The translations under genes and the position numbers were made by a program. The notes under the pieces are model-generated. The model was not told the DNA's origin and made no database searches. It saw only the letters and a program-made list of their open reading frames with translations. This document shows positions 40,721 through 55,453 of a DNA stretch of 64,000 bases, one piece after another; positions within the stretch are counted from its first letter, which is position 1; every line of letters begins with the position of its first letter. The stretch covers positions 1 through 64,000 of the forward strand of contig NZ_NJFZ01000005.1 in the NCBI RefSeq assembly GCF_002270355.1, in the 5' to 3' direction. Origin of the DNA: Flectobacillus sp. BAB-3569. Its GTDB lineage: Bacteria; Bacteroidota; Bacteroidia; Cytophagales; Spirosomataceae.

Positions 40721-41728
40721 TTAGTATCTTTTCACTTTCAAATCTTGCAATCCACCTTCAAAATTGATTAAGATTTTTTTGCTTGACTTGTCATAATTTG
40801 GAGATTCCCAATAGTCACCTCTCTTAGTGAACCCATCAAAGTTTTTCGAATTTAATCCGCCATCTACTTTGATTCGACAACCCACACTTTGTGGAACCTC
40901 AAACTCAATTGAAGTAAGTCCTGACTCTACGTTAACAATCATATTATCTGACAATTCACCCAATTTGATATCTGTTTTGGTTACCCCTGTTTTGATATCC
41001 AATTGTTTGATACGGTATGATGAAAAATCGAAATCTGCTTTTCCAGCACCGAATTCAAATTTCATGTTCCAAAGCACATTAGGGTTGAATTTCAAATCAA
41101 CTTTATTATGACGGTCACTGTCAAAATTGATCCCTTCTTTTTTTCCAGAAAGTTTGAATTTTACGTTCGGGTTATCGCCATCTCCAGTTTTTCCTAAAGA
41201 GATTTTTCCAAAATCAAGATCGGCATCAGCTTCTACTAACTCAGAAGTCCCGCCGTCGATAATAAACTCTGCTGCTCCACCATTCAACTCAAAATTAGCA
41301 GTTTTGATAGATGAGCTCATTGGTTCGGTGATATGTTGCTTGCCACCAGCGCCAAAAGATTTTTCATCATCGTTATTATCATCTCTATTGTTATCCTCAC
41401 TCTGGTCCTTATCGTCGTTGTTATCATTGTCATCATCAAATCTTAAATGGAAATTTTTATCTCCATCAAACACTTCTGACTTCACATCATCAACACAACT
41501 CTTGACCAATACCAATGGAATAAAAATAGCCATCATGATAATAGAAATTACGGTGGCTGAGCGGCTGGTTTTGCCCACGAAGGCCATCAAGCCCATGTAG
41601 ATCAATAGCAATGGCCACATTCGAGCGATATCATGCCAGTGGATATGAAACCACCCATATTCTTTTCCGAGGAAGAGGATACCTAATATAATTAGAAAAC
41701 CTCCTGCAAATATATTTTTAGAGTTCAT
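40721..41728 (-). CDS. LiaF/LiaI-like envelope-stress membrane protein
   Basis: This 335-residue protein has three membrane helices in its first 76 residues (DUF5668/LiaI-like, with the IFAGGFLIILGILFL start). A very acidic Asp/Asn linker (98-122) follows, then a beta-helical domain resembling the LiaF C-terminus, with repeated GGxxxxxID-type turns. Such proteins respond to cell-envelope stress. It is 19 bases downstream of a pspC-like gene, and the two form an operon. The product's exact role in Bacteroidota is not established. Confidence 0.75.
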   Translation of the reverse strand: MNSKNIFAGGFLIILGILFLGKEYGWFHIHWHDIARMWPLLLIYMGLMAFVGKTSRSATVISIIMMAIFIPLVLVKSCVDDVKSEVFDGDKNFHLRFDDDNDNNDDKDQSEDNNRDDNNDDEKSFGAGGKQHITEPMSSSIKTANFELNGGAAEFIIDGGTSELVEADADLDFGKISLGKTGDGDNPNVKFKLSGKKEGINFDSDRHNKVDLKFNPNVLWNMKFEFGAGKADFDFSSYRIKQLDIKTGVTKTDIKLGELSDNMIVNVESGLTSIEFEVPQSVGCRIKVDGGLNSKNFDGFTKRGDYWESPNYDKSSKKILINFEGGLQDLKVKRY

Positions 41729-41747
41729 GGCTTAAAGGTTTTGAATA

Positions 41748-42179
41748 TTAGAATTGACCGTAATTATCATTATTGCCATTTGACTTTCTATCCTTGAAAA
41801 TGATGTAACCACCTACACCAATAAGTACTAAAGGCCATAATTTATGCATATCAAAGCTTGGGATCCATTCATCTAAGAAGAAAACTAAGCCTAGGCCGAT
41901 AAGTACGGCACCCCAAATTTTATTTGATTCTTTTTTCATATCAGGTTTATTAAAATTGAAAGCAGTGGCATCGTTTACAGTGGTGTCCCAAGTATTTTTA
42001 ACTGGTAAGGCAATCCAAAGGATGATATACATCCAAAAGAAAAAGCCATGTGACAACACTGTTCCGAAGAAAAATATCAGTTGTATAATTACAGTTTCTA
42101 TTCCGAATCTTTCTGAGAGTCCTGCACAAACACCCCCCAAAGTAGCTTTTGAAGGATTGCGATAAAGTCTTTCGTTCAT
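41748..42179 (-). CDS. PspC-domain membrane protein
   Basis: This 143-residue protein begins with a PspC domain (residues 4-60; LYRNPSKATLGGVCAGLSER, then a helix with FFFWMYIILWIALP). A second hydrophobic part (about 88-132, IWGAVLIGLGLVFFLDEW) resembles the LiaI/DUF5668 helices of the next gene. PspC senses membrane stress in other bacteria. It leads the two-gene operon with the LiaF-like protein. Confidence 0.85.
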   Translation of the reverse strand: MNERLYRNPSKATLGGVCAGLSERFGIETVIIQLIFFFGTVLSHGFFFWMYIILWIALPVKNTWDTTVNDATAFNFNKPDMKKESNKIWGAVLIGLGLVFFLDEWIPSFDMHKLWPLVLIGVGGYIIFKDRKSNGNNDNYGQF

Positions 42180-44478: not shown

Positions 44479-45906
44479 CTATAACTCACTTAAACCTGAG
44501 TAATATGCTAAACTTGCTAGTGCTTTTTCGTATTTACTTCGCAAAGATTCAACCTTGACTTTCATGTCGATAAACTTACTTTCACGAGAGTTGATTAGGA
44601 AAAGTGTACTTTCGCCTATTTCAAACTTACGTTGTTCAGCTTTCAGTAAAAGTTCCTGATTGCTGGTCGCTTGTTGTTGAATAGAAAGCTGACGTTCAAG
44701 GTTTTTTACATCGTTGTAAGCTGCATAAATATCGTTCACAACCTCTCTTTTTGCTAAATTGTATTCAAAACCTGTCGACAATTGCTTGATACGAACTTGT
44801 TCGAGCTTACCTCTTTCTTTTCGTAAAAAAATAGGCATTACAAATTCAATACCCATTTTGTGATTATCAAAAGAGACTCCTCCTTCTGGACCGTAATTGC
44901 TATTGAGAGTTTTGGTAATAAGATTGAAATTGAAATTCAATTGTGGTTTCAACAATTCCTTTCTAAGCTTTTCCTCTAATCCCAACTGTTTGATTTTGAC
45001 ATCCAATTTTACAATTTCAGGATGTTGGACTTTCGCCTGAGTAATGAGGTTTTGTAAAGTGACCTCGTCAAGTTTTCGGGTCGGAATTTTTGGAGGAATA
45101 GCACCTTCAGGTAATTCTAATGGATTTTCGTTGGCATCCCACAAAAAATTAGAAAGTGCCAAACGGGTATTTTGCAATTCGACATAAGCTTGCTCCAATG
45201 CTACCTGACGGTCTTGCAAGGTAATCTTTGCCTCCACAGAGTCAATCGCAGCTTGTTCGCCAATGGCAGCACGTTCTTTAGTTGCTATATATCGAGTATT
45301 CGCCAAATTCAAACCTTCTTGAATAAACTGTAATTGTTGATAGCTAAACCACCATTCCCAATAGGCTTTCGATGCAGACAAAACTGTTTTATTAATCAAT
45401 TTCAATCGCTCAGCTTCAGAAATTGTCTTAGCCAATTGTGCCTGTTTTAAGGTAGTACGACGTGCATCGATAATCATCCCTTGTCCAATAGGAACAGTGA
45501 TGCCCGCTACCAGTAATTCGGGAGATTCTTCAGGTAAAAGTTTTTTACCTGTACGATTTTCATACCCTAATTTTAAATCTGTTCCTGTCCAAACAGGAAC
45601 TTTTAAGGCATTTTCCCAACGATTATAATACTCGCTTCCACCCAAAGCTTTACGATCGAGCGTAGAGCTAAGTTTGGGGTCAAACTGACCTTTGGCTTGC
45701 ATAATTTCGGTTTCGGCATCGCGTGGGTACAAATCCGCTTGCTTGACCATGGGGTGATTTTTGAGCACCAAACTTTTAAAATCCTCAAAACTAAAAGCTG
45801 TCTGAGCAGATACTCTGAAGCCTGCAAAGCTCCAGAGTATAAGAATAAAAAAGAAAGGTTTGACAAGAAAAGCACCCTGATGTGTGTTATTCTGCATCTT
45901 TATCAT
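44479..45906 (-). CDS. TolC-family outer-membrane efflux/secretion channel
   Basis: This 475-residue protein has a signal peptide (cleavage near RVSAQ, about residue 35) and two long helical repeats of the outer-membrane efflux protein type (about 40-230 and 270-470), which form the periplasmic tunnel. It is the last gene of the export operon and overlaps the HlyD gene by four bases (ATGA, 45903-45906), so translation is probably coupled. It would provide the exit duct for the ABC/HlyD pair. Confidence 0.9.
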   Translation of the reverse strand: MIKMQNNTHQGAFLVKPFFFILILWSFAGFRVSAQTAFSFEDFKSLVLKNHPMVKQADLYPRDAETEIMQAKGQFDPKLSSTLDRKALGGSEYYNRWENALKVPVWTGTDLKLGYENRTGKKLLPEESPELLVAGITVPIGQGMIIDARRTTLKQAQLAKTISEAERLKLINKTVLSASKAYWEWWFSYQQLQFIQEGLNLANTRYIATKERAAIGEQAAIDSVEAKITLQDRQVALEQAYVELQNTRLALSNFLWDANENPLELPEGAIPPKIPTRKLDEVTLQNLITQAKVQHPEIVKLDVKIKQLGLEEKLRKELLKPQLNFNFNLITKTLNSNYGPEGGVSFDNHKMGIEFVMPIFLRKERGKLEQVRIKQLSTGFEYNLAKREVVNDIYAAYNDVKNLERQLSIQQQATSNQELLLKAEQRKFEIGESTLFLINSRESKFIDMKVKVESLRSKYEKALASLAYYSGLSEL

Positions 45907-47279
45907 TTTTTATCTTCTTTTTTAGCTTGTTTGTCAGGTTGTTTTTCCTCTGGTTCACTCTTTAAGTTGGCAGGGAAAGCATTGAGCTGACGCCATACTT
46001 CATACCAAATAGGTACATTGTCGAGCATTACCCAGCCTACTACACCTGAGCCCATTCGCAATTGTTTTGGCCAAGGATCATCTCCTTTTTTCGGGATTAC
46101 TAGCATACGATATTCTCCACCTTTACTATCTACTCGGTCGATAACTTTGACTGTACCTCCAAAAGTACCTACCGAAGTAGAAGGCCATCCAGAAAATACC
46201 AATGCTGGCCAACCTTCAAACTGCAAACGTACTTCACGACCTTCTTGGATAAGCGGCACGTCCATCGCTTTTACATATAGTTCTACAGCTGTATCTGGAT
46301 TAGAAGGTTGAAGCGTACAGATAGACTCCCCTTCTTTGATGGTTTCGCCAATACCTGCTTTCAAGGCTTTTACCACAAATCCATCTTGTGGTGCTCTAAC
46401 AACATATTGTCCAAGGCGATAATCAACATTGGAGATTTTATTTTGTAGCTGTGACAACTCATATTCCCCAGTAGCAACCGACGATAGAGCTGAGCTTCTA
46501 TCAGATTCTGCCTTTGAGATTTTTTCCGCATATTCTGCATTTACAGAGTTGAGTTCGATACGAGCATTGATAAGCTCTTGACGAGAAACCAACAATTTAT
46601 TTTGTATCGAAACATATTTTGCTTTTGTCTCCTGCAATTTTAGTTTACGCGATTCTAGTTCGCTCAATGACACAATACCTCCATTTTTGTATTGGTCTTC
46701 GCCACGATCATAACGCACCTGTGCGATATTAACTTGCACTTGTTCTGCCAACATATCGGTACTATCCGACACTACTTTGGCTTGGTTTTGCTTTACCTTG
46801 TTTTTAGCTTTTTGCAAACTAAACTGCTGGTTTTGTTGCAAAGCCACAATTTGCGACTCAAGGGCTCTTACTTTGACATGATAGCTTTCAATAGCAGATC
46901 TTTTGGCAGCAAGTTGCTCTTGTAATCTTCCAGAAAGATTTTTATCAAAATAATCATCCTTAATTTCGGATACCACTAAAATGGTATCCCCTTTCTCTAC
47001 ATAGTCACCTTCTTTCACGAGCCATTTCTCGATTCGACCTGCAATGATATTTTGAATATTTTGAGGTCGATCTTTGGGCGTAAGTGCTGTAATCTCGCCT
47101 TTACCATTAATATTTTGCTGCCAAGGCAAAAATATAATAAGCAACAAAACAACCCCAATCCCAATAAGCCATCTTTTTAGGACGACTGCTGACCGTGGCG
47201 TATGCAAAGTGTTGAGAGAGTATAAATCAAACTCCTCATGAACACGGTCGTGAACTTTTTGTTTTGATATATTTAACAT
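45903..47279 (-). CDS. HlyD-family periplasmic adaptor
   Basis: This 458-residue membrane-fusion protein bridges the ABC exporter and TolC. It has a short cytoplasmic N-terminus, one membrane helix (about 35-52, LIGIGVVLLLIIFLPW), a biotinyl-lipoyl-like half (GRIEKWLVKEGDYVEKGD), a long coiled-coil hairpin (about 120-285), the returning half (YVVRAPQDGFVVKALKAG) and a beta-barrel domain. The last 25 residues are rich in Lys, Glu and Asp. The adaptor looks intact and normal, unlike the neighbouring nucleotide-binding domain. Confidence 0.92.
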   Translation of the reverse strand: MLNISKQKVHDRVHEEFDLYSLNTLHTPRSAVVLKRWLIGIGVVLLLIIFLPWQQNINGKGEITALTPKDRPQNIQNIIAGRIEKWLVKEGDYVEKGDTILVVSEIKDDYFDKNLSGRLQEQLAAKRSAIESYHVKVRALESQIVALQQNQQFSLQKAKNKVKQNQAKVVSDSTDMLAEQVQVNIAQVRYDRGEDQYKNGGIVSLSELESRKLKLQETKAKYVSIQNKLLVSRQELINARIELNSVNAEYAEKISKAESDRSSALSSVATGEYELSQLQNKISNVDYRLGQYVVRAPQDGFVVKALKAGIGETIKEGESICTLQPSNPDTAVELYVKAMDVPLIQEGREVRLQFEGWPALVFSGWPSTSVGTFGGTVKVIDRVDSKGGEYRMLVIPKKGDDPWPKQLRMGSGVVGWVMLDNVPIWYEVWRQLNAFPANLKSEPEEKQPDKQAKKEDKK

Positions 47280-47341: not shown

Positions 47342-48052
47342 CTAATCCACCAATGACATAAACTTATCGTTTTTGATAAGCTCCTCAAATGGGCCGTCCA
47401 ATACAATTTCGCCTTCATTCATTACTAAAACTCGATCACAAGTTGCCATCACCATTGGGTCATTCGAGATGGTGAGTAAGGTCCAAGGATTTTGTTTATC
47501 GGTCAAAAATGAGATACATTTCATTCGCTCGGCCTTGTGTAGCTCACGATAGATATCGGTAATCATCAGCAATTTTGGCTTTTCAACTACACATCTAGCC
47601 ACTGATACTTTGGCGATAAAGCTTTCTGAAAAACGCTTGCCTCCAGCAATCATTTGGGTACTAAGTCCATCAGGTAGCTCAGCTATAACATCTTGCATAT
47701 TGAGACTTCGGAGCGCCCACTGCAAATCTTCGAAAGTGATATTTTTGCGTCCCATTACTATGTTGTCGATTAATGAACCGTCAAAAATCAAGTCCACAGC
47801 AAGGTTGCGCTCAATTGCATCACGAACGGCATTTAAGTCCAAATCACGAATCGAAATACCATTGTAAGAAACAGAGCCTTCGTACTCAGTAAAAATCGCA
47901 GATAAGATTTTAAGCAAAGTTTCTTTACCTGATCCATTGGTACCAGTAATACAAATACTTTCGTTTGGACGCACATCCAAATTCAAGTTTCTCAATACCT
48001 TTTTATTTCCATCTGGATATTTATAACTCAAGTTTTGCAACTTGATGGCCAT
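47342..48052 (-). CDS. Degenerate ABC-transporter nucleotide-binding domain (apparently ATPase-dead)
   Basis: The 236-residue protein is plainly an ABC nucleotide-binding domain by fold order and flanking sequence (IKLQNLSYKYPDGNKKVL start; CDRVLVMNEGEIVLDG end). Every catalytic motif is altered. Walker A reads GTNGSGKET, with Glu where Ser/Thr should hold Mg-ATP. The Q-loop Gln is missing (LAVDLIF). The LSGGQ signature is FSESF. Walker B reads LLMITDI with Ile for the catalytic Glu. The D-loop is YREL, and the H-loop His is Asn (TISNDP). The frame is open and well conserved otherwise, so it is not decaying by stops. It overlaps the membrane-domain gene by 25 bases and may be co-translated or fused with it. 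Confidence 0.85.
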   Translation of the reverse strand: MAIKLQNLSYKYPDGNKKVLRNLNLDVRPNESICITGTNGSGKETLLKILSAIFTEYEGSVSYNGISIRDLDLNAVRDAIERNLAVDLIFDGSLIDNIVMGRKNITFEDLQWALRSLNMQDVIAELPDGLSTQMIAGGKRFSESFIAKVSVARCVVEKPKLLMITDIYRELHKAERMKCISFLTDKQNPWTLLTISNDPMVMATCDRVLVMNEGEIVLDGPFEELIKNDKFMSLVD

Positions 48053-49524
48053 TCCTTCGGAATGCTGGTTAAATCGTAGTTTAAGCCCGTTTGACGCTCT
48101 AAAGGAAGATCAGTAACAGTTCCCATTTTTTCAACGGCTGTCAACAAATCAAAAACTGTTTCGATACTACCAATCAATTTTTCGACAGAGTTTACCACCA
48201 ATACGATGATAATTTCAGAAGCAACAAACTGCCCAAGCGTAATTTGTCGGTCGATAACTAAGGCAGTACCCAACACTAGGAGTAAACCCGTAATAAATGC
48301 TTTGAAGAATACTGCATTTCCAAAAAGGATTAGCAATACGTTAAAATGTTTTTTACGATACTTAAGATAATTATTTACCAAATGGTCCATGCGTTGCATA
48401 GGCAAATTGGTGGATCCAGCAGATTTGAAGGCATACAAAGTACGAGCAATATCTTCAAGCCATTGCGCTACTTTATACTTATACTTTGATTCAATTAAAC
48501 TGGTCTCAAGTCCTTTGGGTGCATTATAATAGACTACTAACGATACAACAACGACCGTAATAGCCCCAAATGCAATGAAGTAAGGGTGATAAAGCGATAG
48601 CAATATAATACCAAACACAATTTGGATTACGGCTGCTGTTACGTCGATAAGTACTTTGGGAAGTGCTTTTTGAACATTGAGAATGTCAAAAAAACGATTC
48701 ATTAACTCTGGTGCGTAGACCCCTAATAAAGATTCAGATTTGACTCTAGGGATACGATAGGTAAATTCGAAGGCAGCTTTGGCAAAAACTCTTCTTTGAA
48801 GAATTTCGACAAGCGTTTGTTGGTAAATTTGTAGGATACCCGAAAAGACAATTCCAAGTATTACGACACCGACTAAGACATAAACAGAACTAAAGAATAG
48901 ACCTCCTGAGACAAGCCCAATGATAGCCTGAATGCCTAGTGGCAAGGTTAAGCTAATGATACCCACTACAATGGCATAGATATAGATAGTGGTGATATCT
49001 TTTTTCTCCTTACGAAGCATATTAAACAGCCTCTGTACAGGAGATAACTGCTCGAAGGCATTATCCTCTGCAATATTTTCGAGGGGAAAGACTTTCAAAA
49101 ATCTCACCTTCCCGTTATTAGACTTGTCAGGAGAATTTGAAACGACTGCTGGTCTAAAAGATGAAGACGACGAAATCGATTCTGTTTCATTTTCTAAAAT
49201 ACGCCAAAAGAATGACTCATCATCTTTGAGTTTTCTAGCTGCTAAAATTGGTCTAATCTCTCCTTGAGAATCATCAAAAAATATAATTGGATGAGAGCTT
49301 TGCTCGATTAGAACGTGGAACTCTTTGGCATTAGCGTAGTTTTCGACTACTAAAAACTGTTGTTTTCTGGCCTCTTGGATAAGGTCATTCACAAAGTCGT
49401 TGATACTATCCTTAGCGTAAGTTTTAGTCGGCGATAGTGATGACTGGTATGTGAAATTGTTAAATTCAGTGCCGTAAAACTCGGTCAGTTTCTTAACGAT
49501 AAGGCTTAACTGAGTGCTTTGCAT
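48028..49524 (-). CDS. ABC exporter membrane domain with N-terminal cytoplasmic extension
   Basis: This 498-residue protein has a type I ABC exporter membrane domain (about 180-470, five to six helices; IYAIVVGIISLTLPLGIQA, FEFTYRIPRVKSESL, LTAVEKMGTVTDLP). The first about 175 residues form a soluble domain at the place of the C39-like domain of HlyB-type exporters, but I see no convincing Cys/His protease residues. The frame runs 11 residues past the usual membrane-NBD linker (TDLPLERQTG) and ends in a 25-base overlap with the next gene. It is first in the operon with the NBD, HlyD and TolC genes. The cargo is unknown. Confidence 0.85.
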   Translation of the reverse strand: MQSTQLSLIVKKLTEFYGTEFNNFTYQSSLSPTKTYAKDSINDFVNDLIQEARKQQFLVVENYANAKEFHVLIEQSSHPIIFFDDSQGEIRPILAARKLKDDESFFWRILENETESISSSSSFRPAVVSNSPDKSNNGKVRFLKVFPLENIAEDNAFEQLSPVQRLFNMLRKEKKDITTIYIYAIVVGIISLTLPLGIQAIIGLVSGGLFFSSVYVLVGVVILGIVFSGILQIYQQTLVEILQRRVFAKAAFEFTYRIPRVKSESLLGVYAPELMNRFFDILNVQKALPKVLIDVTAAVIQIVFGIILLSLYHPYFIAFGAITVVVVSLVVYYNAPKGLETSLIESKYKYKVAQWLEDIARTLYAFKSAGSTNLPMQRMDHLVNNYLKYRKKHFNVLLILFGNAVFFKAFITGLLLVLGTALVIDRQITLGQFVASEIIIVLVVNSVEKLIGSIETVFDLLTAVEKMGTVTDLPLERQTGLNYDLTSIPKEWPSSCKT

Positions 49525-49733: not shown

Positions 49734-49946
49734 CTTTGCCTTTTATTATTTAGTAATTTAGTCCTAGATTAAGAGTAATGGTATTATTTCATGAAAAAAT
49801 AAGTTTTTTCACTTAAATTTTCTTTAACTAAATATCACCTTTTTTTCAGATAAACAAAACTAAAAGAGGGTAATTTTCCGTTTATTAAATTTTGGAGATA
49901 AGCTCCATATCAACCATTGAGGCAAAGCCTTGCTTTGCAAGTCCTT

Positions 49947-52355
49947 ATGTTTAAAGAATTCATTCGGCCACTGATATTACTATTATCTATATGCTGCCAA
50001 GTTTATACTGTCAATGCCTTTCAAATCAATACGACTGATTCCTCATCATTTACTCGTCAAGCTGTAGAAAAAGCTATTTTGAATGCTAGCAAGCATGACC
50101 AAAAACAAGCCAATTTTTCTGCTGAGGTTTTTATTCAAAATACAGGGAAATGGAATCATATCCCAAGTATTTGGAAAGGTCCTCTCAAAAAAGAGGGAAT
50201 AGAAGACCATTTAGCGTATCAATCAGAATCTTATGGAAAGTTTCGTGTAGACACTGCCTATAATTATGTATTTGATTTTAAAGCTACTCGTAACAATTAT
50301 CATGCAGAAGCTCGTGCTGACAAGTTTGTAAACCCTAATTTCTATAAAGCTGAGGTGGGGCCAAAAGCTATTTCTCCACTCTCTCCTAAGGCTTTTCACT
50401 TTTATGATTTTAAGTGGATAGGTAATGCATTTCTTGCTGGAAAAGAAGCAGATTGGTTTGAAATTATCCCCAAACGTAATAATGACGAAAAAGTTTTTTC
50501 TGGAAAAATTGCGTTGTCTAAAGACGAAGGATGGATTGTCGGATTAGATGTTTCAGTAAATCATTATGCGATTCAATATCACTTTGAAATAGATTTTGAA
50601 TCTATTCAATCAGTAGTTCTTCCTCTAAAATATCAAATATCTACCACTGGTAAACTCATGGGATTTCAGGGCGAATACCAGTATGTAGCACATGTTTGGA
50701 ATTATCAGCTAGGAAACATCGAGCCTATCAAGAGACCTGCTGAACATCAATTTCGTGAAGTTTATAATATTCAAGAGCGTAACTTCGAAGTACAGCAGTT
50801 TAAGCAAGTAATAGGTACGCTTGGTGCTAATCTCGAAAATACGTGGAGCGACGCTAATATTGGGTCGGGCTTGAAAAGATATGATAAAATAAACTTGGAG
50901 ATTTTGCCCGAATCACAATCACAAGAATGGTGGGACAATCTAAAAAAAGCGTATCAAACAAAAAACTACCTCCCACAACTTTCTATTTCGGCGATTTCCA
51001 AATCAACATTGCCTCCGCAACCTGACGAGTATGCTACCTATCGTCAAGCCAACCTCAAGTTTGGTGTCGGAAGTATTTTATTTAGTCGCTCGTATTTTTG
51101 GGGAGATAATACAAGAGGTTTTTACCCACACGAAATTTACTATAAATCTCCCGTTTTAGACTTTAACTTCAACACTGTTGAAGGATTCGTTCAAAATACG
51201 GGCGCTTTGTATCGTTTTAGAAAAGCTCGTTATGATTGGTTTGAAATAGACCCAACTTGGCGATATTCTTACAACTTAAATAAGTCATCAGGAACTCTTA
51301 AGCTTCGTTGGAAAACCCAACAAGACGACATCAGTATTACTGGTGGGAAGTTTGTATCGCAATACAATGTGGATACACCGATTGCCTTTGATCTTAACTC
51401 ATTATCGACATTATTATTAAAGAAAAATTACGTAAAAATTTACGAGAAAGAGTTTATCAATTTTAGTTTAGTTGAAAGACTTTCAAATGCCTTTGCCATT
51501 CGTGGTTCGGCGGAATGGGCAAGAAGATTTCCTTTGGAAAACACAACCAATTATTACTGGATTAACTTCCAGAATACGCCGTATTTGCCTAACAACCCAG
51601 AAAATAAAGAAATTGGCAATACCGAATTTAAAACCAATACAGCTTTTTCGGTCAGTTTTCAGGTAAACTATCGCCCTACGCTCAAAAAGCAATACCGCAA
51701 CAATATCAGAATGGTCGATTTGTCTTCGTCGCCATTAATTATGTTCAAGTATCGTGGTGCCTTCAGCGAGGTTCTTAATACAGACATTGACTTTCATACC
51801 GTTGAATTGGGGATTACTCATAACTTTCCAATATCGCTCAATACCAACTTTAATTACATAGCACAAGTTGGTACATTTTTCGATGTAAAGAATATGACTT
51901 TTGCCGACTACAAGCATTTTAATGGCAATAACAATATGATTTCGATTGGAAATATGCTTACCACACACAGATTAGTAGGTTTTTATGATAACTATATTTG
52001 GGGGGCAAGTAAGAAATTCATTGATCCATATTTGTATTCCACAAATGGCACTTACATCGATATTATGACCATGGTTGGAATGAGAAAATTTCTAATTTCA
52101 AGACTAAATATTGCACGAAAATTGGCACTACGTGAAGAGTTCTTTGCTAACTATATGTATACAGCCAACAAGAATTTTCACTATGCAGAATTTGGCTATG
52201 GTATCGATGGTATTGCTCGTATTTTCCGTTTAGAATTTGGCTACCGACTTGAAAATGGTACTTTCACAAAGGATACCCCAACCTCAAGAATTACCCCTAT
52301 CATTCGTATTTCTCTCAACTCAAGAGTACGTGGAGGTGTAACACCTGACTGGTAA
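49947..52355 (+). CDS. DUF5686-family outer-membrane barrel protein
   Basis: From the ATG at 49947 the product has 802 residues with a signal peptide (ending near VNAFQ). It matches the DUF5686 family of Bacteroidota outer-membrane proteins: an N-terminal periplasmic part (AVEKAILNASKHDQKQANFS), WWDNLKKAYQTKNYLPQ in the middle and a long beta-barrel with the FGVGSILFSRSYFWG start and an aromatic-rich end. The carboxypeptidase-regulatory-like domain usually found at the N-terminus of this family is absent. Function is unknown. It diverges from the export operon, so a joint role is possible but unproven. Confidence 0.82.
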   Translation: MFKEFIRPLILLLSICCQVYTVNAFQINTTDSSSFTRQAVEKAILNASKHDQKQANFSAEVFIQNTGKWNHIPSIWKGPLKKEGIEDHLAYQSESYGKFRVDTAYNYVFDFKATRNNYHAEARADKFVNPNFYKAEVGPKAISPLSPKAFHFYDFKWIGNAFLAGKEADWFEIIPKRNNDEKVFSGKIALSKDEGWIVGLDVSVNHYAIQYHFEIDFESIQSVVLPLKYQISTTGKLMGFQGEYQYVAHVWNYQLGNIEPIKRPAEHQFREVYNIQERNFEVQQFKQVIGTLGANLENTWSDANIGSGLKRYDKINLEILPESQSQEWWDNLKKAYQTKNYLPQLSISAISKSTLPPQPDEYATYRQANLKFGVGSILFSRSYFWGDNTRGFYPHEIYYKSPVLDFNFNTVEGFVQNTGALYRFRKARYDWFEIDPTWRYSYNLNKSSGTLKLRWKTQQDDISITGGKFVSQYNVDTPIAFDLNSLSTLLLKKNYVKIYEKEFINFSLVERLSNAFAIRGSAEWARRFPLENTTNYYWINFQNTPYLPNNPENKEIGNTEFKTNTAFSVSFQVNYRPTLKKQYRNNIRMVDLSSSPLIMFKYRGAFSEVLNTDIDFHTVELGITHNFPISLNTNFNYIAQVGTFFDVKNMTFADYKHFNGNNNMISIGNMLTTHRLVGFYDNYIWGASKKFIDPYLYSTNGTYIDIMTMVGMRKFLISRLNIARKLALREEFFANYMYTANKNFHYAEFGYGIDGIARIFRLEFGYRLENGTFTKDTPTSRITPIIRISLNSRVRGGVTPDW

Positions 52356-52607: not shown

Positions 52608-53096
52608 ATGGCAAAGTACAATCTTTCTGTAAATGGCAAAAAATATACTGTAGATGCTGATCCTGACACTCCACTTTTGTGGGTGATTCGTGACTACGTG
52701 GGTTTGAAAGGCACTAAATTTGGCTGTGGAATGGCACTTTGTGGTGCATGTACCGTTCATTTGGACGGACAGCCAATCCGTTCATGCTCAACGCCAGTTT
52801 CTACAGTAAAGGCAACCAATAAAATCACTACTATTGAGGGAATTTCTAACAACACTGATCATGCTGTACAAAAAGCATGGATTGAAGCTCAAGTACCTCA
52901 GTGTGGTTATTGCCAATCAGGACAAATTATGTCTGCTGTGGCACTTTTGAAAACAAATCCAAATCCTAGTGATTCGGATATCGATGAGGCTATGTCTGGT
53001 AATATTTGCCGCTGCGGAACTTATCCACGTATTCGCAAAGCGATTCACCGTGCGGCAGAATTAATGAAAGATTCAGGTAATACAACTGGTAGATAA
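52608..53096 (+). CDS. iorA: Isoquinoline 1-oxidoreductase-type [2Fe-2S] alpha subunit
   Basis: This 162-residue iron-sulfur subunit passes electrons from the molybdenum site of its partner. A ferredoxin-like cluster is bound by C40, C45, C48 and C60. The second, helical cluster is bound by C99, C102, C134 and C136 ([17 protein letters not shown]). All eight Cys are present. There is no Tat signal, so it would be carried with the beta subunit, whose gene follows after a 170-base gap that contains a dispersed repeat. Confidence 0.95.
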
Positions 53097-53103
53097 GAAT
53101 ATT

Positions 53104-53234
53104 GTACTTAGGCAAAATCAGCTTTAGGCTCTCAGCTCTAGGGATTAGGCATTTAAAATAACACAGAAATATATTGCCGACTGCCCATAGCTGAATACCA
53201 AAAGCCTAACAGTTTATTTTGCCCACTCACTTAC
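53104..53234. repeat. MITE-like dispersed repeat, copy 3
   Basis: This 131-bp copy begins GTACTTAGGCAAAATCAGC (53104-53122) and ends TTATTTTGCCCACTCACTTA plus C (53214-53234), an inverted terminal pair matching copy 2 at 24893-25058. The internal GCCGACTGCCCATAGCTGAA corresponds to GCCGAATGCCCAAAGCTGAA of copy 1. It lies inside the iorA-iorB operon. Confidence 0.6.
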
Positions 53235-53269
53235 TAAAACCATTGTTTACCTTCAACTCTCAAACTATC

Positions 53270-55453
53270 ATGACAAAATCATTAGAATCTTCAAGTCGTA
53301 GAGACTTTTTGAAATCTACGGGAAAAGTTGGGGCTTTGTTGGCTATCGGCTTTTCGTTGCCTTGGCAACAAGGACAAGCTGCAACCATTACCAAAATTGA
53401 CACAACGAGTTCATTAGCAGGACTAGAACTCAATCCTTATATCTTGATCAGTGACGATGGGCAAATAACCTTATTTAACGCTCGTCCAGACATGGGGCAA
53501 GGCACTTATCAATCTTTACCGCTATTACTGGCTGAGGAACTGGAGGTAGATTTATCTCAAGTTCAAATCCGTAATACCGACGGTCAAGGTAAGTATGGTG
53601 CACAGTTATCTGGTGGTTCGTCTTCTATTCGCACACGCTGGCAACCTATGCGTAAAGCTGGTGCAGCGGTAAAAGAAATGTTGATTACAGCTGCTTCCAA
53701 AAAATGGAATGTTCCTACTTCGGATTGTTACGCTCAACTTGGTAAAGTATATCACAAGCCTTCTGGCAAGTCTTATACTTATGGAGAATTAGTGGAAGAG
53801 GCTTCAAAATTAGAAGTGCCTAAAAACCCTAAACTCAAAGACCCGAAAGACTTCAGACTTTTAGGAAAATCAGTTCCAAGACCAGAGATTCCTTCTAAAA
53901 TTAATGGTAGTGCAGTTTTTGGCATCGATGCCGAAGTGCCAGGCATGTTGTATGCGAGTATCCAGCGCTCTCCAACTATTTTAGGTAAAGTAAAGAGTAT
54001 TGATAGTGCAGAAGCGCTGAAGGTAAAAGGTGTGAAAAAGGTCGTAAAAACCGAACGCAAAATGCCTCACCGTGCCGTAGAAGCTGTTGCAGTCGTTGCT
54101 GATACTTATTGGGCTGCCTTGAAAGCAAGAAAAGCGCTTAAAATACAATGGGATGCTGAGGGTTCAGACAAAATTTCGACGGATGCTTATTATGCCAATC
54201 TTCGCCAGTTAGCCAAACAAGAAGGAATAGACTATCCAGAAAAAGCAGGTGATTTTAAAGGTGCATTCCAAAAAGCGAGTAAAAAACTTGAAGCTTCTTA
54301 TGAAACACCTTTCTTGGCGCATGCTCCTCTTGAGCCAGAGAATGCAACTGTATGGGTGCAAGGCGACAAAGTAGAAGTATGGGCTCCTATTCAAGGTCCT
54401 GATGGCTTGATTCAACAGTTGTCGGCATACCTAAAAATTAAGCCTGAGAATGTAAAAGTAAACGTACCATTTATGGGCGGTGCTTTTGGTAGAAAAGCCT
54501 ATTTCGATTATGTGATGGAAGCAGCACATATTTCTAAACAGCTTAATGCTCCTATTAAGGTAATCTGGACACGCGAAGACGATATGACGCAAGGACCGTT
54601 CCGTCCGGGTATGCTTGACAGATTGGAGGGTGCGATTGATGAGAAAGGTGCTTTAGTGGCTCACCATCACCAAATTGTGGGTTCTTCGATTCAGCATCAA
54701 GTATTTGGGGTACCACTCAAAGACAAAGCTGATGATTGGGCACATGAAACAGCTAATTTTGAAGATAGTCCTTATGATATTGCTAACAGAAAACTATCTT
54801 TCAATCTAGCAGAAACCGATATTCCTATTCTTTGGTGGCGTTCGGTATATTCATCTACTACAGCATTTGGTCAAGAGTGTTTTATGGATGAATTAGCACA
54901 TGCTGCGCAGATTGACCCACTGGCTTTTAGATTAGAAATGTTAGCTGACTCGCCACGCTTTTCAAGAGTTTTACAGACTTTAGCTAAGAAATCGAACTAT
55001 CATCAAAAATTACCTAATAATCAGGCCATCGGTATTGCAGTGGCTCGTTCGTTTGGTACTATCGCAGCGCATGCGATTACGGTTTCGAAACAAGGCAAAG
55101 GGGTGAAAATTGAAAAAGTTGTGTCAGTTATTGACTGCGGTATGACGGTAAACCCTGATAATATCAAGGCACAAACTGAAGGAAATATCGTGATGGGATT
55201 GACGGCAGCTATCAAAAATGGTATCACCATTAAAGATGGTATCACCGAACAAACCAATTTCCACGAATATAACGTAATGCGCATCAATGAGATGCCAGCT
55301 ACAGAAATTCACATTATTGATTCTACCGAAGAACCAGGAGGAGTTGGCGAGCCAGGCTTACCACCTATTGCTCCTGCACTTTGTAATGCCATATTCAACT
55401 TGACTGGTAAACGACTTCGAAATTTACCAATCAATTTGGACGAAATAGGTTAA
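53270..55453 (+). CDS. iorB: Isoquinoline 1-oxidoreductase-type molybdopterin-binding beta subunit (copy 2)
   Basis: From the ATG at 53270 the product has 727 residues and a Tat signal (SRRDFLKSTGK at about 9-19). The molybdopterin-domain blocks are present (NARPDMGQGTYQSLPLLLAE, PFMGGAFGRKAY and the C-terminal [21 protein letters not shown] with the active-site Glu region). It pairs with the iorA gene just upstream. It is clearly paralogous to the beta subunit at 22460-24628, with the same order of motifs. The substrate is unknown. Confidence 0.93.
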   Translation: MTKSLESSSRRDFLKSTGKVGALLAIGFSLPWQQGQAATITKIDTTSSLAGLELNPYILISDDGQITLFNARPDMGQGTYQSLPLLLAEELEVDLSQVQIRNTDGQGKYGAQLSGGSSSIRTRWQPMRKAGAAVKEMLITAASKKWNVPTSDCYAQLGKVYHKPSGKSYTYGELVEEASKLEVPKNPKLKDPKDFRLLGKSVPRPEIPSKINGSAVFGIDAEVPGMLYASIQRSPTILGKVKSIDSAEALKVKGVKKVVKTERKMPHRAVEAVAVVADTYWAALKARKALKIQWDAEGSDKISTDAYYANLRQLAKQEGIDYPEKAGDFKGAFQKASKKLEASYETPFLAHAPLEPENATVWVQGDKVEVWAPIQGPDGLIQQLSAYLKIKPENVKVNVPFMGGAFGRKAYFDYVMEAAHISKQLNAPIKVIWTREDDMTQGPFRPGMLDRLEGAIDEKGALVAHHHQIVGSSIQHQVFGVPLKDKADDWAHETANFEDSPYDIANRKLSFNLAETDIPILWWRSVYSSTTAFGQECFMDELAHAAQIDPLAFRLEMLADSPRFSRVLQTLAKKSNYHQKLPNNQAIGIAVARSFGTIAAHAITVSKQGKGVKIEKVVSVIDCGMTVNPDNIKAQTEGNIVMGLTAAIKNGITIKDGITEQTNFHEYNVMRINEMPATEIHIIDSTEEPGGVGEPGLPPIAPALCNAIFNLTGKRLRNLPINLDEIG

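Follow-up and report, generated by a model that had tools for sequence, protein, structure and literature searches.

Results

An operon of type I secretion layout with a degenerate ABC nucleotide-binding domain

The window, by which we mean the whole 64,000-nucleotide stretch analysed here (Flectobacillus sp. BAB-3569, contig NZ_NJFZ01000005.1, positions 1 to 64,000), carries an operon in which an ABC gene adjoins an HlyD-type adaptor and a TolC-type channel, that is, a type I secretion layout:

44479..45906, minus strand: TolC-type outer membrane factor, 475 aa (PF02321, 149.6 bits)
45903..47279, minus strand: HlyD-type periplasmic adaptor, 458 aa (PF13437, 40.4 bits)
47342..48052, minus strand: degenerate ABC nucleotide-binding domain (NBD), 236 aa (PF00005, 59 bits, cut-off 25)
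48028..49524, minus strand: 498-aa frame with an N-terminal domain (residues ~1-158) and an ABC exporter TMD (~159-480)

The TolC and HlyD frames share 4 bases of overlap, and the HlyD-type frame also matched TIGR01843 at 79.4 bits, under the cut-off of 208.65. Judged by their sequences, both partners appear intact, as the original prediction had held. The 498-aa frame matched PF00664 at 41.7 bits and was alignable with 176 family TMDs, and its TMD has the six-helix exporter fold (type IV) with coupling helices. Residues 1-158 of the same frame gave no Pfam family match. A C39 or C39-like N-terminal domain was likewise without a Pfam match in the window or the scanned relatives, and the N-terminal domain of outer family members found no credible PDB sequence match; any likeness to a C39-type domain would be conjectural. 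This domain evolved faster than the TMD and the NBD (dN/dS 0.105-0.152 among the window and its relatives L071 and L072), and there is no room for it in frames of the 550-aa class or of the NBD-less clade described below.

We found no second transporter gene beside the operon, and the window genome contained one family TMD match. Divergent from the operon lies a DUF5686 protein (49917-52355; PF18939, 371 bits), with a matching frame at seven close loci. The surroundings also include what we take to be a PspC-like protein and, after it, one that carries an acidic linker (40721-42179) and, presumably, the 2Fe-2S and large molybdopterin-type subunits of a xanthine dehydrogenase-like enzyme (52608-55453).

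ABC exporters are defined by their ATPase. In the window NBD, the motif positions read as follows:

47918..47944, minus strand: Walker A, GTNGSGKET, which retains the Lys and has Glu for the Mg-binding Ser/Thr
47798..47800, minus strand: Q-loop position, Gln to Ala
47618..47632, minus strand: signature position, FSESF in place of LSGGQ
47552..47575, minus strand: Walker B position, KLLMITDI, Asp to Thr and catalytic Glu to Asp
47462..47464, minus strand: H-loop position, His to Asn

By alignment, the window NBD was canonical at 0 of 6 hydrolytic positions. As an in-genome control, we scored 20 of the 52 other PF00005 matches, a non-random pick of the better-scoring ones; Walker A, Walker B and His were all canonical in 14 of these 20, and the other six comprised four gapped or cut sequences, the misaligned L221, and L213, which carries a Glu to Asp change. 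The alignment returned the same motifs that had been read earlier from the letters (KET, the Q-loop, FSESF, ITDI and the H-loop Asn), and the PF00005 match supports the assignment as an NBD. The expectation that such a domain should not hydrolyse ATP agrees with the sequence, in which the hydrolytic motif positions are lost. Two statements of the original prediction needed narrowing. It had every catalytic motif altered; the hydrolytic positions are indeed lost, but the Walker A Lys and the A-loop aromatic are kept throughout the window clade (28/28). It also had Walker B lacking Glu; the catalytic Glu is gone, but an Asp stands there, so that the position is not simply empty.

The motif losses are shared by a clade and the degenerate NBD is under selection

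The TMD and NBD frames in the window overlap by 25 bases. In four congeners, TMD and NBD form one fused frame of 732-740 aa, with 80-97% identity, and the window NBD is 36-97% identical to the NBDs of fused relatives. The window has two frames because of a one-base length difference in a T run, which we located in aligned DNA:

48071..48075, minus strand: short T run, one base off in length against the four congeners

An NBD that is a protein of its own, as first described, is therefore not what the lineage encodes: the congeners are fused, and the window is split through this one-base difference. The break may be real or an assembly error, and the window strain may lack a working protein, this copy being split. 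The earlier observation itself stands, although neither the frame split nor the existence of fused and of NBD-less relatives had been noticed. A broken TMD-NBD frame also occurs in other relatives (L070, L090 and G128), all in draft genomes.

We then scored the NBDs of the window clade, for which 28 sequences were counted (L070 omitted; L090 and L168, from the same genome, both included). A Ser or Thr at the Mg-binding position was found in 0/28, the residue being Glu in 14, Asn in 10, Asp in 2 and His in 2. The Q-loop Gln and a signature Gly at either position were likewise at 0/28. Walker B retained its Asp in a single member and the catalytic Glu in none, with Asp at the Glu position in 23; the H-loop His was present in five. 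In 22 of the 28, all six hydrolytic positions were non-canonical. By contrast with these losses, every member (28/28) had the Lys of Walker A and an aromatic residue in the A-loop. When we checked for shared substitutions across genera, as had been suggested, loss of the hydrolytic positions was common to them, but the replacing residues varied. The members L085, L086, L090, L094 and L168 (g20, Siphonobacter) keep the His and have lost the other five scored hydrolytic positions.

Comparison of the window with its congener L071 gave dN/dS values of 0.152 in the N-terminal domain, 0.026 in the TMD and 0.033 in the NBD; for L071 and L072, the values were 0.113, 0.028 and 0.013, respectively. For the window and L073, where dS was saturated, amino-acid changes per site were higher in the NBD (0.109) than in the TMD (0.066). 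The low NBD dN/dS values indicate that the dead NBD is under strong purifying selection, nearly at the level of the TMD, and selection has retained it in many genera.

A graded series of probable ATPase loss within one phylum

TMD matches of the family at E <= 1e-40 were present in 76 of the 296 genomes of our phylum sample. We examined a 3-kb neighbourhood at 180 loci, of which 174 had an HlyD frame there and 168 a TolC frame. At the search threshold, the six HlyD misses are real; of the 12 loci without TolC, four have less than 1.6 kb of downstream sequence, and the other eight are real at the threshold.

We looked for canonical motifs in close relatives, a finding that would have spoken for decay of this copy alone, and found them in 0/28 of the clade; near-canonical NBDs occurred only far from the window, in the outer set, where Walker A, Walker B and His were all canonical in 13/18. 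The Q-loop Gln was at 0/18 even in this outer set, so the family was unusual early. In the inner family, no NBD among 127 combined a canonical Walker A with a canonical Walker B and a canonical His. The 45 NBDs from proteins without the N-terminal domain (~545-607 aa) retained the Ser/Thr in 42, the Walker B Asp in 7, the Glu in 15 and the His in 0; the 54 N-domain NBDs outside the window clade retained them in 40, 10, 4 and 0, respectively. These classes are based on stop-to-stop frames, and many of the relatives are draft genomes or MAGs. The tree root was chosen on the outer set, and we infer the direction of decay, from canonical to degenerate, from the ABC superfamily at large. Overall, we read the series as stepwise ATPase loss from an HlyD/TolC-linked ABC exporter, not as local decay.

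At its far end, one clade of 34 loci (Spirosoma, Fibrella, Larkinella and others) has a TMD frame without an NBD and keeps TMD, HlyD and TolC. The HlyD and TolC frames were next in line at 34/34 of these loci, the TolC of L104 being in two frames. As L044/L120 and L045/L129 are identical sequences, the 34 loci give 32 distinct TMDs. In the TMD tree, the NBD-less clade (29 rows) fell on one side of a branch with support of 100/100 and nested in a larger clade of 52 rows (100/99), in which the remaining 23 rows carry dead NBDs; in the HlyD tree, built by a quick method, the NBD-less loci likewise formed one group (SH-aLRT 99). The exact point at which the NBD-less clade joins its relatives with dead NBDs was weakly supported (86/56, 97/71 and 96/59). 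Two independent NBD losses, considered since g32 stands apart by identity, were rejected, as the TMD and HlyD trees each give one group.

Among the eight closest pairs of NBD-less TMDs, one of them a duplicate, dN/dS was 0.004-0.061, which places these TMDs under purifying selection. The model of the NBD-less L104 has a predicted ABC exporter fold. A Pfam scan of L104 to E 0.1 gave a match to PF00664 alone, with none to the SbmA/BacA family profile. An NBD-bearing copy, L096, was found in a Spirosoma fluviale MAG, against a clean taxonomic split. In genus g32, NBD-less and NBD-bearing copies of the operon coexist in one genome, for example L051 and L053 beside L052 in G064, and L049 beside L066 in G032.

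Coupling helix 2 is relaxed in the NBD-less clade

In ABC exporters, coupling helices engage the NBDs (PMC8277102). We followed sequence variability along the TMD, and in particular at the putative docking site:

48400..48444, minus strand: coupling helix 2 region, residues 361-375, probable NBD docking site, conserved in the window copy

In the L104 model, a predicted helix at residues 214-219, between the fourth and fifth long helices, aligns with residues 363-368 of the window TMD and, by its position, is likely to be coupling helix 2. We compared the NBD-less class with the two dead-NBD N-domain classes in 15-residue sliding windows beginning at residues 163-445, a range that leaves the extreme ends of the TMD outside the comparison. 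At coupling helix 2, the NBD-less class showed up to 1.24 bits of extra variability; the 222 sliding windows outside residues 346-392 had a mean of -0.07, a standard deviation of 0.127 and a maximum of 0.34. No comparable rise in variability was observed at the first coupling region of the NBD-less clade. Residue K367 was Lys in 27/27, 52/53, 42/44 and 17/17 members of the NBD-bearing classes and Arg in 31/32 of the NBD-less class (L090, L139, L168 and L207 were omitted from the TMD column counts).

In the L104 model, coupling helix 2 is still predicted as a short helix, its sequence relaxed. This pattern of constraint suggests continued docking of the dead NBD, with the docking site freed only once the NBD was gone. 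Relaxation of the helix where the NBD is missing also argues against an NBD acting in trans on NBD-less TMDs.

Discussion

Taken together, the sequences point to the window operon encoding the inner-membrane part of a tripartite HlyD-TolC system of ABC exporter descent, which may have abandoned ATP hydrolysis, a reading that we believe about as much as we doubt. Two TMD copies would pair into the dimer usual for exporters, and this dimer would feed HlyD and TolC. The dead NBD of the window clade could then serve as a structural clamp or as a nucleotide-sensing gate, its Walker A Lys and A-loop aromatic having been kept. Transport would be powered by a proton gradient or a substrate gradient, as has been proposed for SbmA, a relative of ABC exporters that has no NBD (PMC13316013). 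Candidate proton carriers would be acids kept in 32/32 distinct NBD-less TMDs, for example D294 and E437 (window TMD numbering). Members with near-canonical NBDs conserve such acids as well (E437 in 16/17 of the outer class), so that the acids are not special to the NBD-less state; they are compatible with, and no proof of, proton coupling. A further proposal, tentative though plausible, is that an ATP-driven tripartite exporter became proton-driven, with all stages (near-canonical NBD, dead but conserved NBD, NBD absent) extant in one phylum and HlyD and TolC present throughout.

The same genes could instead form a conduit, passive or gated, or a scaffold holding HlyD and TolC in place, with no pump at all and with the NBD as a gate or regulator as in CFTR and SUR1. 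An intact hydrolytic site is absent, HlyD and TolC are retained at all 34 NBD-less loci, and CFTR and SUR chains are among the matches of the NBD profile, with P-glycoprotein chains scoring higher. We nevertheless consider this unlikely: an open passage through both membranes would presumably be costly for the cell, and the strong constraint on the TMD, charged residues included, suits a moving transporter at least equally well. An ATPase encoded elsewhere might also act in trans, either pairing with the degenerate NBD or replacing it. Heterodimers with one degenerate site are common (PMC7756269), and the window genome has many other NBDs. Yet the genome has a single family TMD match and the operon no adjoining second transporter gene; in the 49 genomes with short TMD frames, the best NBD match had an E value of 4e-29, against 3e-50 or lower for fused relatives, a comparison that would miss an unrelated ATPase; and the constraint on coupling helix 2 is lost in the NBD-less clade. 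An ATPase in trans is in our estimate improbable. The second active NBD partner that the original prediction had offered is not supported by the single family TMD match, the lack of an adjoining transporter gene or the NBD-less clade; an unlinked partner of unrelated sequence would have escaped these comparisons.

Slow hydrolysis through an unusual site would fit the Walker A Lys and A-loop aromatic at 28/28 and the Asp at the catalytic Glu position in 23/28. It is hard to reconcile with a Ser/Thr at 0/28, a Walker B Asp at 1/28 and a His at 5/28, or with one clade that lives without the NBD, and we regard it as very improbable. That the window gene is a decaying pseudogene, as a frame broken by a one-base difference might imply, is hardly credible given that four congeners show the same motif changes in open, fused frames, that other genera share them, and that NBD dN/dS is 0.01-0.03 among the window, L071 and L072. 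Local decay of the NBD was rejected for the lineage on the fused open frames of the congeners and the low dN/dS.

Our preferred reading, a tripartite system that no longer hydrolyses ATP, has its nearest parallel in SbmA/BacA (SLiPT) and YddA-like kin, which have an exporter TMD without an NBD and for which an NBD-bearing ABC ancestor has been proposed (PMC13316013). Part of the SbmA/BacA acid ladder is said in the same study to pre-exist in NBD-bearing kin, as the acids do here. The differences are that SbmA is a peptide importer with a TM0 domain, and that the sections covered name no HlyD or TolC partner (PMC13316013). SbmA kin are described there with split TMD and NBD genes; here, members with a dead but conserved NBD survive. 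The window itself, unlike SbmA/BacA, has an NBD, and it is the related 34-locus clade that has none in the TMD frame. In heterodimeric exporters such as TM287/288, TmrAB and TAP, the catalytic Glu and the signature are likewise substituted (PMC7756269, PMC8277102). In those exporters a second subunit keeps one canonical site, and here we found no second subunit.

The ABC components of type I secretion (HlyB, LssB, PCAT1 and ComA) have intact ATPase motifs that are absent here, the NBD itself being absent in one clade. CFTR and SUR1/SUR2, which were among the NBD and fold matches, put the ABC fold to a non-pump job. They bind and partly hydrolyse ATP, and they are not known to have an adaptor or outer-membrane partner. 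None of the top-ranked literature matches described an ABC exporter linked to HlyD and TolC in which the NBD is dead or missing.

A widespread lineage in which the ATPase died and was then dropped while its partners were kept would show that the exporter fold with HlyD and TolC can run on other energy. If the proposed change from ATP-driven to proton-driven export is true, the outcome would be a type I secretion-like machine that works without an ATPase, and its living stages would form a natural series from primary pump to secondary transporter. Members with a dead but conserved NBD would be the middle step, making the passage from primary to secondary transport testable stepwise. Annotation by homology would call these genes an ABC transporter or a type I secretion system, and may assign the wrong energy source.

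Among neighbouring frames of at least 70 aa, we found no conserved cargo- or substrate-like gene. The commonest shared neighbour was a TetR-like frame, at 80 of the 171 loci with at least 1 kb of upstream sequence, in a group formed by single-linkage BLAST with one member checked by Pfam. TetR-type regulators beside many relatives suggest inducible efflux; no TetR regulator lies beside the window operon. By class, the TetR-like frame was present at 21/34 NBD-less loci, 30/48 loci with an NBD only and 29/89 loci with both the N-terminal domain and an NBD.
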